DNA from: Alphaproteobacteria bacterium
GTDB taxonomy: Bacteria; Pseudomonadota; Alphaproteobacteria; RF32; CAG-239
Length of the DNA: 15,747 nucleotides
Direction of reading: 5' to 3'
Assembly (NCBI GenBank): GCA_017645485.1
Contig: JAGCOI010000071.1
Coordinates: 1 to 15,747, forward strand
The notes under the pieces are model-generated. The model saw only the letters and a list, made by a program, of their open reading frames with translations. It was not told the origin of the DNA and made no database searches. The translations under genes and the position numbers were made by a program. Shown here in pieces: positions 1 through 13,187 of the stretch (position 1 is the first letter of the stretch; every line of letters begins with the position of its first letter).

Positions 1-338
1 TATGAAAGTCCGCGTTGAGCAGCATTCATATAGTCACTACCGTTTAAGTATGCTTGTTTTAAACCTGAATACGGATTCATCATATATGTATTAGAATTTC
101 CAAAACCATAGTTATTGGCAGCATTTCCCCAGAAGTTGGTACCATATTGAGGATAGTTTTTGGTAATGCCTTGGTTGTTATACTGCTGCATCAGTTGGTT
201 TTCGCGTTTTTCGCGTGCATATTGATATTCTATTTCATCACGCAGACTAAAGTTGTTATGATTGACACCATAAGTGTCAATACCGCCCACACCTGTTTGA
301 TACCCAAACGGTGAGATATATTTCGGATACATATCCAT
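1..338 (-). CDS. Paralogous accessory protein, N-terminal part only (cut by window edge)
   Basis: An open frame starts at the ATG ending at 338 and stays open for 112 codons to the left edge, so the C-terminus lies outside the window. An AAGGAG ribosome-binding site sits 6 nt upstream, which fixes the start. Residues 1-80 match the head of the complete gene at 1373-2185 at 64 of 80 positions, including FSLRDEIEYQYAREKREN and the block ending NNYGFG. After residue 80 the two proteins share nothing. The visible tail here is Tyr/Asn/Met-rich (NSNTYMMNPYSGLKQ). There is no signal peptide or membrane segment in the visible part. It has the same promoter and palindrome as its paralogue, so the two are likely co-regulated. 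Function is not recognised; a constant head with a variable tail would fit an effector family, but that is inference. Confidence 0.85.
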   Translation of the reverse strand, partial: MDMYPKYISPFGYQTGVGGIDTYGVNHNNFSLRDEIEYQYAREKRENQLMQQYNNQGITKNYPQYGTNFWGNAANNYGFGNSNTYMMNPYSGLKQAYLNGSDYMNAAQRGLS

Positions 339-360
339 TTTTTACTCCTTGTTAAATTAT

Positions 361-374
361 TGCAAAATTTTGCA
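361..374. promoter_or_regulatory. Perfect 14-bp palindrome at the predicted transcription start (copy 1)
   Basis: TGCAAAATTTTGCA is its own reverse complement. It lies 6 nt downstream of the -10 box of the minus-strand promoter, so it covers roughly +1 to +14. The same palindrome is at the same place in copy 2 (2216-2229). Its position is typical of a repressor operator; the binding protein is unknown. Confidence 0.55.
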
Positions 375-380
375 TCACTT

Positions 381-409
381 ATTTTAACAAAGAGCAAAAC
401 CCTTGTCTA
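381..409 (-). promoter_or_regulatory. Sigma-70-type promoter of the partial paralogue (copy 1)
   Basis: On the minus strand, a -35 box TAGACA (404-409, 5 of 6 to consensus), a 17-nt spacer and a -10 box TAAAAT (381-386, 5 of 6) lie upstream of the ATG at 338. The arrangement is repeated in copy 2 with the same 17-nt spacing, which supports it. Confidence 0.65.
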
Positions 410-666
410 TCCGTCACAGAATGCAAGAATCCCCTTTTGCTTTCTATGACTGATTTTTCTTTAACTCACGATTGTTTTCTTCCGCTAATTTTATCAGTTT
501 ATTATATTGATTGCTTGGCTTATATGGAATTATAACATCAAATTGCAACATTTTCGGGCAAAAAAGGATGTAAAATCCACGATTCACCCAAAATAAAAAA
601 TATATTTTGATTTCTGATTTTTTATCATCTTATCCTATCTGTTTTATCACAGATTTAAATTGAATA

Positions 667-1290
667 TTATTTTTGTTCATATTCTTCTTTGAGATATGTG
701 CTATTATCACGCTTAGAAATGTATATTATGTTACCATTATCTATTTTTACAATTTCCATCTTTACGGCCTGCTCGCATTTTCCTTCTGCACAACTCTGTA
801 ATGCGGTTATCTCTTCATATTCCGGAATAAAATATATGTGCGAAAGCCCTAAAACACCTAAAAGAAATAAACATACTTTTCCTTTACGTATATTCGACAT
901 ACTAATAACTAACAAAAGAAGTAAATTAGCATACAACAACCATTCAATATACACAAACTTGTTATCTTTGTACATTTGTATAATAGATGGAAGTTGATGC
1001 AACATATACGGGATAAACAAACACAAAACAATCCATACCCCACTTTCTATATAGACAACCTTGCAATATTTGGTTTTTAATAAAAATAAAAGAATCAAAG
1101 TCGCTAAAAGTAAAGAATAATACCGCATGAATTTGTATGCAATCTTAATTCCATTATCATAATTATCCGCATTAATAGAAAAAAAATCAAAGTCTAGTAT
1201 TATGCCAAACGCCATAAAAAGCAAAAGACAATAAGAAACTCTATCAAGTATATTCAAAAATTTGAAAAAAGCATTGCGTAATTTCTGCAT
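667..1290 (-). CDS. Small polytopic membrane protein of unknown function
   Basis: A 207-residue protein I do not recognise. Five hydrophobic stretches look like membrane spans, at about residues 18-35, 56-72, 82-101, 115-132 and 139-155. They are followed by a polar C-terminal domain of about 50 residues with two close cysteines (Cys167, Cys172), which could form a disulfide if the domain faces the periplasm. The start is the ATG ending at 1290, preceded by GAGAT 5 nt upstream, a modest ribosome-binding site. It follows the 270-residue accessory protein by 82 bp on the same strand, and no convincing terminator lies between, so the two may be co-transcribed; it also has its own promoter-like site. 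The gene looks more AT-rich than its neighbours, consistent with acquisition by transfer. Being small, membrane-bound and next to a variable-tailed protein, it could be a protective or anchoring partner; that is inference. Confidence 0.8.
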   Translation of the reverse strand: MQKLRNAFFKFLNILDRVSYCLLLFMAFGIILDFDFFSINADNYDNGIKIAYKFMRYYSLLLATLILLFLLKTKYCKVVYIESGVWIVLCLFIPYMLHQLPSIIQMYKDNKFVYIEWLLYANLLLLLVISMSNIRKGKVCLFLLGVLGLSHIYFIPEYEEITALQSCAEGKCEQAVKMEIVKIDNGNIIYISKRDNSTYLKEEYEQK

Positions 1291-1317
1291 ACTTTATCTC
1301 TTTAAAATTATTTATTC

Positions 1318-1346
1318 ATGTAACCAAAGAATAACTGATTTGTCAA
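1318..1346 (-). promoter_or_regulatory. Possible promoter of the 207-residue membrane protein
   Basis: On the minus strand a perfect -35 box TTGACA (1341-1346) is followed 17 nt later by a poor -10 box TTACAT (1318-1323, 3 of 6). The start codon is about 27 nt further on. The weak -10 makes this a moderate call. The -35 box lies inside the loop of the inverted repeat at 1326-1359. Confidence 0.45.
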
Positions 1347-1359
1347 GCGGTTATTCTTT
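1326..1359. promoter_or_regulatory. Inverted repeat with 10-bp perfect arms around a -35 box
   Basis: AAAGAATAAC (1326-1335) and GTTATTCTTT (1350-1359) are exact reverse complements separated by 14 nt. There is no T-tract on either side, so it is a poor terminator. The -35 box of the candidate promoter falls between the arms and one arm lies in the spacer, which would suit an operator. An RNA hairpin acting on the downstream gene is the alternative. Confidence 0.5.
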
Positions 1360-1372
1360 AGTCTTATATTTA

Positions 1373-2185
1373 TTATCTTCTACGAGTATGCAGAGGTAAC
1401 AAATAGCTGCATTCATTCATATCATTTGTTGACAATCCTCTTGATATACCTATGGCATCATTAACTAAATCCTTAAAACTATCTTGAAGAATTTGCCAAT
1501 TGCTGCCATATTTGGGATGATTCCACTTTTTATATAAATCAGCTCCTTCTTTATATAATCCCGCTGCTGCTGTTACTCCTGCAGATACAGGTCCATCAAA
1601 AGCTCCTATGCAACTTACGTATCGATGTTTATTAACATCCGATATATCTATAGGTGTTAATCTTTGGGCTTCTGCCTGAGCTTTGGCTAATGAAGACCTA
1701 TTTTCATAATTTTGAGCGTTATGTTGAGGATAAGTTAATCTCTCCGTAACATCATATCCTAGATTATAAATATTTTCAGTCAATTTATCTATTCCTGTTT
1801 TTCTAGCTATATTACTTAGGTTATCGCTAAATTGACTAACCATACTTTTATTGTTTTGCACTGGCTGTTGCGGCACAACCGTCGCTTGTGGTATTGGCGA
1901 GAAATTGTTTTTCATATTGGCGATGTTGCCGGCAATATTTGTCCTGCCAAAGCCATAGTTATTGGCAGCATTTCCCCAGAAGTTGATACCATATTGAGGA
2001 TAGTTTTTGGTAATGCCTTGAGCCTTGTAGTGTTCTTTCAATTCGTTTTCGCGTTTTTCGCGCGCATATTGATATTCTATTTCATCACGCAGACTAAAAT
2101 CGCTATGATCCACGCCATAGCTGTCTATTTTACCCTCACCCGCTTCATACCCGAACGGTGAGGTATATTTCGGATACATATCCAT
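1373..2185 (-). CDS. Accessory protein with duplicated head and unique C-terminal domain
   Basis: A complete 270-residue protein, not recognised. Residues 1-80 are the constant head shared with the partial gene at the left edge, rich in Tyr, Asn and charged residues, with no signal peptide. Residues 81-165 form a low-complexity Asn/Gln/Ser/Pro-rich linker. Residues 186-260 look like a separate folded domain with the pattern HRYVSC.GAF.G, then G.YKEG.DLYKK, then DSFKDL..DAIGISRG. The start is the ATG ending at 2185, with AGGAG 8 nt upstream. It lies just downstream of the rpsI terminator and has its own promoter and palindrome. The next gene, 82 bp on, is a small membrane protein. Constant head, linker and variable tail is the arrangement of polymorphic secreted effectors, but no catalytic motif was identified; a phage-like structural or accessory protein is equally possible. 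Confidence 0.85.
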   Translation of the reverse strand: MDMYPKYTSPFGYEAGEGKIDSYGVDHSDFSLRDEIEYQYAREKRENELKEHYKAQGITKNYPQYGINFWGNAANNYGFGRTNIAGNIANMKNNFSPIPQATVVPQQPVQNNKSMVSQFSDNLSNIARKTGIDKLTENIYNLGYDVTERLTYPQHNAQNYENRSSLAKAQAEAQRLTPIDISDVNKHRYVSCIGAFDGPVSAGVTAAAGLYKEGADLYKKWNHPKYGSNWQILQDSFKDLVNDAIGISRGLSTNDMNECSYLLPLHTRRR

Positions 2186-2215
2186 TTCTTTTACTCCTAA
2201 TTAAAATAAAACTAT

Positions 2216-2229
2216 TGCAAAATTTTGCA
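2216..2229. promoter_or_regulatory. Perfect 14-bp palindrome at the predicted transcription start (copy 2)
   Basis: Identical to the palindrome at 361-374 and again placed 6 nt downstream of the -10 box. Flanking bases differ between the copies, including a small insertion toward the start codon, while the palindrome is unchanged. That favours a functional operator. Confidence 0.55.
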
Positions 2230-2235
2230 TCACTT

Positions 2236-2264
2236 ATTGTAACAAAGAGCAAAACAACTGTCTA
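2236..2264 (-). promoter_or_regulatory. Sigma-70-type promoter of the 270-residue protein (copy 2)
   Basis: On the minus strand, -35 TAGACA (2259-2264) and -10 TACAAT (2236-2241), each 5 of 6 to consensus, are separated by 17 nt. The -10 differs by one base from copy 1 yet keeps five matches, so both promoters are probably active. Confidence 0.65.
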
Positions 2265-2367
2265 TCCGTCACAGAATGCAAGAATCCCCTTTTGCTTTCT
2301 ATGGGTGATTTTTCTTTAACTCACGATTGTTTCCTTCCGCTAATTTTATCAGTTTATTATTCTGCCA

Positions 2368-12827: not shown

Positions 12828-13187
12828 TTATTTTTCTTTGTTTTTGAAACGTTCACGATCTAAAATCGCGTTAATATAATCAAAATCGGCAAAAGCCGCA
12901 TAGGCCACATCAAAACTTTTGGTGTCATGATGATAAAAAACCTGATTGGCAATATCTTTAATAGCTTTATCAATGCGTGCAAATGCTTCGTTATAATCTT
13001 TGCTGTAGTTATTTTTTGTTTTTTTCTGAACAAGTGCATGATAAGCCCTAATGGCATTGGCTGTCTCATCTGCCGCATTGCGATAACCTTTTTTCTCACA
13101 GTCACGCATAATCTGTGCCATTGTCAAATAAAAGCACTTATTTGTTAAAATATGTCTTTGCAGCGGGTTATTGGTGTTGATAATCAT
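12828..13187 (-). CDS. Uncharacterised 119-residue protein
   Basis: Not recognised. The protein is mostly helical by composition, with regular Ala, Lys, Tyr and Asp residues, no signal peptide and no membrane span. Landmarks are MAQIMRDCEKKGYRNAADET (about 23-42), ARIDKAIKDIANQVF and a C-terminal basic end RERFKNKEK. It could be a small cytosolic structural or regulatory protein. The start is well supported: AAGGAAGG lies 9 nt before the ATG, a promoter with TATATT lies upstream, and a perfect-stem terminator follows. This complete transcription unit argues that the gene is real rather than a chance open frame. Confidence 0.75.
   Translation of the reverse strand: MIINTNNPLQRHILTNKCFYLTMAQIMRDCEKKGYRNAADETANAIRAYHALVQKKTKNNYSKDYNEAFARIDKAIKDIANQVFYHHDTKSFDVAYAAFADFDYINAILDRERFKNKEK

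Follow-up and report, generated by a model that had tools for sequence, protein, structure and literature searches.

A DNA stretch of 15,747 nucleotides (the window) makes up the whole of contig C144 in the draft genome of an uncultured alphaproteobacterium (1,160,115 bases, 251 contigs, 92% complete). It carries two genes that share an N-terminal segment of 80 residues, termed the head, and diverge beyond it. These genes and their head-bearing relatives probably form a polymorphic antibacterial toxin–immunity system, composed of a head of about 80 residues, a disordered linker, exchangeable toxin tails and a cognate immunity gene. The window genes look like interchangeable weapons against rival bacteria, because a constant front end is joined to many toxin-like back ends and often lies beside a likely protective gene. 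An initial annotation of the window had proposed a polymorphic effector family with a constant head, a variable tail and a membrane partner. This proposal is supported by the presence of 27 tail classes and by a partner type that follows the tail type.

Head-bearing open reading frames (ORFs) were collected from 78 loci, based on the 80 best of 140 relatives, and from loci found in earlier genome searches. The set comprises 109 distinct ORFs of at least 110 residues, 87 with a full head and 22 with a partial head. Clustering of the C-terminal parts by BLASTP at an E value of 1e-4, applied to 107 of the 109 ORFs, yields the 27 classes, of which 13 have two or more members (28, 13, 9, 9, 8, 6, 4, 4, 3, 3, 2, 2, and 2) and 14 are singletons. 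The locus edge cuts 10 ORFs, including the entire class 7 (four ORFs) and three of the singletons, further ORFs look broken, and classes 0 and 3 are both related to serum amyloid A (SAA); a safer figure for finished tail types is therefore at least a dozen. The 109 ORFs match the Pfam families SAA (22), GH108 (13), PG_binding_3 (7), Tlde1 (6), YkuD (4), Pesticin (3), SLT (3), phage lysozyme (3), and PBECR2 (2), in addition to weak or single matches. Judged by family, the recognized domains would target peptidoglycan or lipid head groups, the latter by lipocone prediction, except for the nuclease PBECR2 and chance-like matches. The family therefore displays the constant N terminus with variable C termini that defines polymorphic toxin systems. 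Known toxin domains, a second hallmark, occur as tails in many of the 109 ORFs; the window tail itself has no Pfam match. The initial annotation had considered that all homologs of the head might share one tail, which is contradicted by the number of classes.

The head is widespread in the order to which the organism belongs. Among 153 genomes of the order, a profile search detects it in 65, which represent 6 of 17 genera, and its occurrence there excludes the other outcome considered at the start, a head existing only as two copies with one decayed. A search with the single sequence finds it in 26 of 82 genomes of the family and 6 of 16 genera, a single genome having as many as 14 matches, full or partial. 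The head is scarce in its own genus, as the same search matched one of eight members, the genome of the window. In a sample of the class, the profile recovered this genome alone among 289, at least three others of which belong to the family. Of 475 candidates from the protein database, 473 show a match to the head region at an E value of 1e-3, and the 120 matches listed contain Tlde1 (22), SAA (19), Pesticin (7), GH108 (4), and VgrG3-like (2) tails. The relatives that bear names come from uncultured proteobacterial or Alphaproteobacteria metagenome-assembled genomes, many of them titled rumen or gut, in keeping with the GTDB order RF32.

The window genome possesses at least three heads, one with an SAA-like tail, one with a Tlde1 tail and one cut off after 32 tail residues. 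The third lies on contig C132 (locus L005), which ends inside the head (residues 56–80). Behind the head come a similar linker, a tail matching Tlde1 (PF10908, E 4.9e-9), and a membrane ORF of 107 residues. Beyond these genes, L005 contains at 1871–2078 a copy of the upstream region of the window next to a head fragment (residues 8–33), which resembles a scar left by a further module.

The head family is real and large, and it appears new to the libraries searched, although the kind of system is already known. The head has no match above cut-off in Pfam, NCBIfam, PHROGs, or PADLOC: nothing fell below an E value of 0.05 in PHROGs, neither window effector matched NCBIfam, and PADLOC gave no match among five proteins. 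A Glycoamylase match on the second window head (E 0.0038, below cut-off) was rejected as chance. A literature search by title and start of abstract, with all preprints and most subscription papers outside its scope, returned no work on the head or on effectors of the order. A 25,213-residue open frame in genome G055 was discarded as an artifact of N stretches.

In the window, both genes lie on the minus strand. The complete effector gene (1373–2185) encodes the head (1946..2185), a low-complexity linker rich in asparagine, proline, and glutamine (residues 81–115, 1841..1945), and a C-terminal helical tail (residues 160–270 plus the stop codon, 1373..1708). The predicted local distance difference test score is below 50 at residues 103–158. 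The second gene has its head at 99..338 and leaves the contig end at residue 112, so only the first 32 residues of its tail are readable (3..98); these have no relative or continuation among the sequences compared. The protein of the complete gene is also present on seven longer contigs, the longest of 64,799 bases.

The two genes share two pairs of direct repeats, 89–343 versus 1936–2190 (255 nucleotides, 84% identity) and 354–505 versus 2209–2360 (152 nucleotides, 95% identity), the second pair being the upstream regions of the second and the complete gene, respectively, on the minus strand. As originally described, the genes have in common a promoter, a palindrome, a ribosome-binding site (AGGAGT, 344..349 and 2193..2198, minus strand) and the 80-residue head, which is identical at 64 of 80 residues and 205 of 240 nucleotides. 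The boundary is sharp, as had been noted, and the similarity stops about three codons past residue 80. The 16 residue differences correspond to a nonsynonymous divergence (dN) of 0.105 and a synonymous divergence (dS) of 0.472, with a dN/dS ratio of about 0.22, indicating constraint at the protein level and not a recent copy drifting freely.

Both genes possess the same promoter-like element, TAGACA, a 17-nucleotide spacer, and TAAAAT or TACAAT, with TG before the second hexamer (381..409 for the second gene and 2236..2264 for the complete gene, minus strand; 10 of 12 consensus matches each). Such sites number 16 in 2.5 kb, compared to 13.1 (standard deviation 3.9) in shuffled sequence, so the weight rests on the sharing between the two genes and not on the motif. 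Directly downstream of each element is a 14-bp palindrome, TGCAAAATTTTGCA (361..374 and 2216..2229). These two copies are its sole occurrences in the 1.16-Mb assembly, where a control pattern has none. The confinement to two sites suggests one putative operator serving both window genes, and a role as a regulon marker was rejected on the same result. The palindrome or its 12-nucleotide core is found upstream of 6 of the 87 full heads; two of the 87 have no upstream sequence. In other head pairs within a genome, the upstream regions range from about 46–50% identity, as for unrelated sequences, to 100%. The promoter and head do not always move together; the shared promoter is a local trait of close relatives and no fixed element of the module.

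The tails behave as swapped modules, as the initial annotation had anticipated. Within one genome, heads with as much as 94% DNA identity are joined to tails that resemble each other no more than unrelated sequences do. At a syntenic site between rnpA and a gene starting with MFETKEIAQ, two genomes of one genus both have a head gene, but the tails differ, being of class 0 in G077 and of the lysozyme-type class 4 in G070. The window tail is also found behind two other heads. Designating the head of the window as head A and an unrelated head on related tails as head B, the 25 proteins with the window tail comprise 7 with head A, 14 with head B, one with a third head, one with a head stub, and two starting in the linker. 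The window tail occurs with head A, head B, and the third head at 59–81% identity, and hhalign detects no similarity between heads A and B.

A tree of the 87 full heads, built from these short sequences by a quick method, requires 33 changes of genome label, compared to 51–60 in 300 shuffles, and 37 changes of tail class, compared to a shuffle mean of 41.3, with 7 of 300 shuffles as low. The heads thus track the genome, whereas the tails barely track the head. In addition, 19 ORFs contain only the 3′ part of the head and a tail of at least 60 residues, 5 of them cut by the locus edge. Of the 14 uncut ORFs, 10 are located downstream of a full head, at less than 4.5 kb, and 4 upstream of one, but their closeness carries no evidential weight because the loci were selected for holding a full head. 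The head stubs with tails recall orphan toxin cassettes by analogy, and it is their existence, not their position, that matters. Modularity, tail diversity, tail–partner association, and the sharing of tails by unrelated heads are direct outcomes of these computations.

Head B is present in 16 of the 82 family genomes. Its longer relatives contain a Phage_Mu_F domain (PF04233, matched by five proteins at E 3.4e-11 to 2.1e-8), and their N-terminal stretch is similar to the short head B. Proteins with head B or a MuF domain have tails matching classes 0, 1, 2, 4, 8, 9, and 12; different head types draw on a common toxin pool. MuF domains occur in 15 of the 82 genomes and in 5 of the 26 that bear head A, but PF04233 is not among the 16 families matched by the 109 head-A proteins. 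Three MuF-headed toxin genes were inspected at their loci (L145:6397–7527, L146:8296–9795, and L147:5721–6824), and no phage structural gene was recognized nearby by eye. At L145, toxin genes alternate with convergent signal-peptide genes.

The small membrane protein noted after the complete window gene is a hydrophobic ORF of 207 residues (667..1290, minus strand) with five hydrophobic windows, and is predicted to be the cognate immunity protein. Homologs follow all eight of the tails closest to that of the window (45.9–55.3% identity), but are absent at three loci with tails of 39–43% identity. To generalize, the downstream ORF was defined as the longest ORF on the same strand starting from −60 to +400 nucleotides, which gave 79 effectors, compared with composition correction off. 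Downstream ORFs are homologous in 59 of 212 pairs whose tails are at least 30% identical and in 19 of 2851 pairs whose tails have no detectable similarity. In 200 shuffles, the count of 59 compares to a mean of 5.3 and a maximum of 12. The partner type therefore follows the tail type, in line with the membrane partner initially proposed. The muramidase-type tails show another arrangement: a convergent ORF accompanies 11 of 13 GH108-type tails (class 1), with a hydrophobic start in 10, and 6 of 8 lysozyme-type tails (class 4), with a hydrophobic start in 4 and, from an internal methionine, in a fifth (L038). In four other classes (13 ORFs), a convergent ORF is found in 4 and has a hydrophobic start in one, which is antisense to a head. 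The pairing of lipid-type and Tlde1 tails with membrane partners, and of muramidases with secreted ones, fits protection against periplasmic toxins. A cognate gene beside the toxin, a further mark of polymorphic toxin systems, is thus present as an association by tail type, with a predicted immunity role.

By profile and model comparisons, the best reading of the window tail is a remote SAA/lipocone domain. It aligns with the SAA-group tails by hhalign at a probability of 97 and an E value of 9e-11, compared to 0.04–0.45 for seven other tail classes, and SAA structures rank at the top for both predicted models of the tail. In one alignment (A3), residues D183, H187, E213, and D239 of the tail are invariant. 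Two results weigh against the assignment: none of 37 window-type proteins matches the Pfam SAA family PF00277, and the lipocone clade motif sNxxGR is missing from the window tail, which reads NDAIG where protein P0003 has ANMIGR. In a single-sequence search, a class 3 tail (L022:1501–2256) is close to human serum amyloid A1 (SAA1; E 2.7e-13). The SAA-like tails are relevant to the proposal that this animal acute-phase protein originated in bacteria.

From these relationships, we infer toxicity, immunity, target, and an export role of the head, and the system might work as follows. One head of about 80 residues without a hydrophobic signal, followed by a disordered linker, would carry one of many C-terminal toxin domains, mostly acting on peptidoglycan or lipid head groups of the envelope, and the adjoining gene would often encode the cognate membrane or periplasmic immunity protein. 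Recombination in the conserved head, and in close relatives also in the promoter, would join a new tail-plus-immunity cassette and create a new toxin, for which cassettes keeping only the 3′ part of the head could act as donors. For the complete window gene, with its putative SAA/lipocone-type tail, the predicted target is membrane lipid or lipid-linked wall precursors, and the 207-residue membrane protein is the predicted neutralizing partner. The head would direct export, with the conserved VirB/VirD4 type IV secretion system (T4SS) of the family as the most likely machine.

An export or targeting role of the head is plausible. None of the 87 full-head proteins has a hydrophobic stretch in the first 31 residues, and their best 10-residue mean hydrophobicity is 0.58, compared to 2 to 3.7 for the secreted partner candidates. 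Three general vehicles were rejected on counts among the 82 family genomes: the type VI secretion system (T6SS), as VipB is found in none; the contractile sheath, found in 5, including 1 of the 26 head-bearing genomes; and the HK97-type portal, also the type of gene transfer agents (GTAs), found in none in a search that recovered the Caulobacter control and did not cover other portal families. VirB10/TrbI is present in 70 and VirD4 in 78 of the 82, and the window genome has both, which makes the VirB/VirD4 T4SS the best candidate vehicle as judged from gene content.

That the head is a signal for this T4SS, with injection into neighbors as in Xanthomonas-type killing but from the N terminus, has somewhat less than an even chance of being correct. 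By hand count, 22 of the 26 head-bearing and 48 of the 56 other genomes have VirB10, 24 and 54, respectively, have VirD4, and 26 and 55 have at least one of the two. With or without heads, the T4SS is near universal, and its co-occurrence does not single out the head-bearing species; PF02534 also picks up conjugation proteins. Dispersed effector genes, tails attacking wall or lipid, and periplasmic partners conform to the X-T4SS pattern as set out in parts of PMC6536674, but the killing T4SS effectors described there carry a C-terminal signal. In G077 and G070, a head gene is about 4–5 kb from virB11/virB10 with housekeeping genes between, a linkage limited to two genomes of one genus.

The T4SS loci have a peculiarity of their own. 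The VirB10 open frames across the family are mostly about 1,400–1,600 residues long. One annotated locus (L039:3104–10985) contains two VirB8, VirB9, an unusually long VirB10, and VirB11, and VirB10 and its neighbor match the beta-flower repeats PF21785 and PF21784. A second locus (L037:717–10102) also has T4SS genes with an unusually long VirB10, and similar repeats are seen by eye.

Export by another route, such as type I secretion, outer membrane vesicles, or an undescribed secretion system, is a serious contender, although we would not bet on it. The evidence on routes covers VipB, the sheath, the HK97/GTA-type portal, VirB10, and VirD4, with types I, II, and V outside the search, and nothing specific speaks against such a route.

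Loading of the head proteins into phage-like particles (prophage, GTA, or tailocin) is unlikely. The related tails behind MuF domains and the likeness of the short head B to their N terminus would agree with it. The scarcity of the sheath, the absence of the HK97/GTA-type portal, the MuF loci lacking recognizable phage structural genes, and the dissimilarity of heads A and B argue against it. Moreover, none of 13 head pattern matches in viral contigs (IMG/VR) was confirmed, and plasmids gave no head match. Phage records gave one unverified fecal scaffold with the head; three further matches were short, weak, and located in DNA polymerase genes. The scaffold (MT838567.1, L144), titled 'Bacteriophage sp.', is unannotated, 5.1 kb long, and carries head A followed by an ORF like class 0 tails; it is probably a bacterial contig.

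An action on the animal host or protozoa, for example as SAA mimics, is improbable: the organisms are gut-dwelling and the class 3 tail is near human SAA1, but many tails have bacterial wall hydrolase domains and the tail-specific partner genes resemble self-protection. Ordinary gene duplication with one copy decaying and no exchange of tails is scarcely credible: decayed head remnants do exist (L005:2001–2078 and several short heads), but the tail diversity and the sharing of tails between heads already contradict it as a general account, and the dN/dS ratio of the window heads also weighs against it.

Two other ORFs of the window are of note. A 119-residue ORF at 12828–13187 has no family match above cut-off, and a cysteine-rich partial ORF at the contig end (15168–15746) has a weak EGF-like match below cut-off.

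The short head offers a sequence tag by which hundreds of predicted effectors, with their likely partners, can be retrieved from an uncultured lineage of gut and rumen that gave no T6SS match. The interesting part of the head-A system is its delivery route; if the head is a T4SS signal, the system would be an example of a T4SS running a swappable arsenal. More speculatively, and in our view rather doubtful in its full extent, the head may be the first N-terminal recruitment domain to define a polymorphic antibacterial effector class of the T4SS, in gut Alphaproteobacteria with a VirB10 enlarged by beta-flower repeats and no T6SS. Cassettes would then move among head A, head B, and the MuF phage head, so that injected and phage-type weapons would share one toxin pool, including SAA-like lipid toxins.

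The polymorphic toxin–immunity system proposed here resembles several known ones. WHIX effectors are said to have a short constant N-terminal domain before diverse toxic domains and to use the T6SS. RIX effectors, as described in parts of PMC10435454, have the same arrangement, are delivered by the T6SS and are widespread in one bacterial family. The head-A family likewise has a short constant N terminus ahead of varied toxic domains, but RIX and WHIX effectors are T6SS users, whereas the family genomes have no VipB; the likeness is one of description, and the head is unmatched in the libraries searched. Orphan toxin–immunity modules of contact-dependent growth inhibition (CDI) and Rhs systems are extra cassettes partly homologous to the constant part. 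The head stubs with tails in the head-A family may be comparable cassettes, but its proteins are much smaller and no Rhs or filamentous repeats were seen.

MuF polymorphic toxins (PMC5576092; PMC3482391, in part) are described in the first of these papers as encoded exclusively in temperate phages and their prophages. Related toxin tails have MuF heads in the same bacterial family here, but the head-A proteins lack the MuF domain, and the three MuF loci show no recognized phage genes. The lipocone prok-SAA toxins have SAA-like toxin tips with membrane or periplasmic immunity and are predicted to act on lipid head groups (PMC12419801, in part). The window also combines an SAA-like toxin tip with a membrane partner, but its tail is more divergent, and the head is not named in the main-text parts of PMC12419801. 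The X-Tfe/X-Tfi proteins, as presented in parts of PMC6536674, comprise muramidase- and lipase-type toxins from dispersed genes, with periplasmic immunity proteins and a VirB/VirD4 machine, and the X-Tfes have a common C-terminal XVIPCD. In the head-A family, by contrast, the constant part lies at the N terminus, and BLASTP at an E value of 1e-4 finds no C-terminal similarity shared between tail classes, in a comparison that did not include a search for XVIPCD itself. The two systems nevertheless have in common dispersed effector genes, wall- and lipid-type toxins, periplasmic partners, and the presence of VirB/VirD4.

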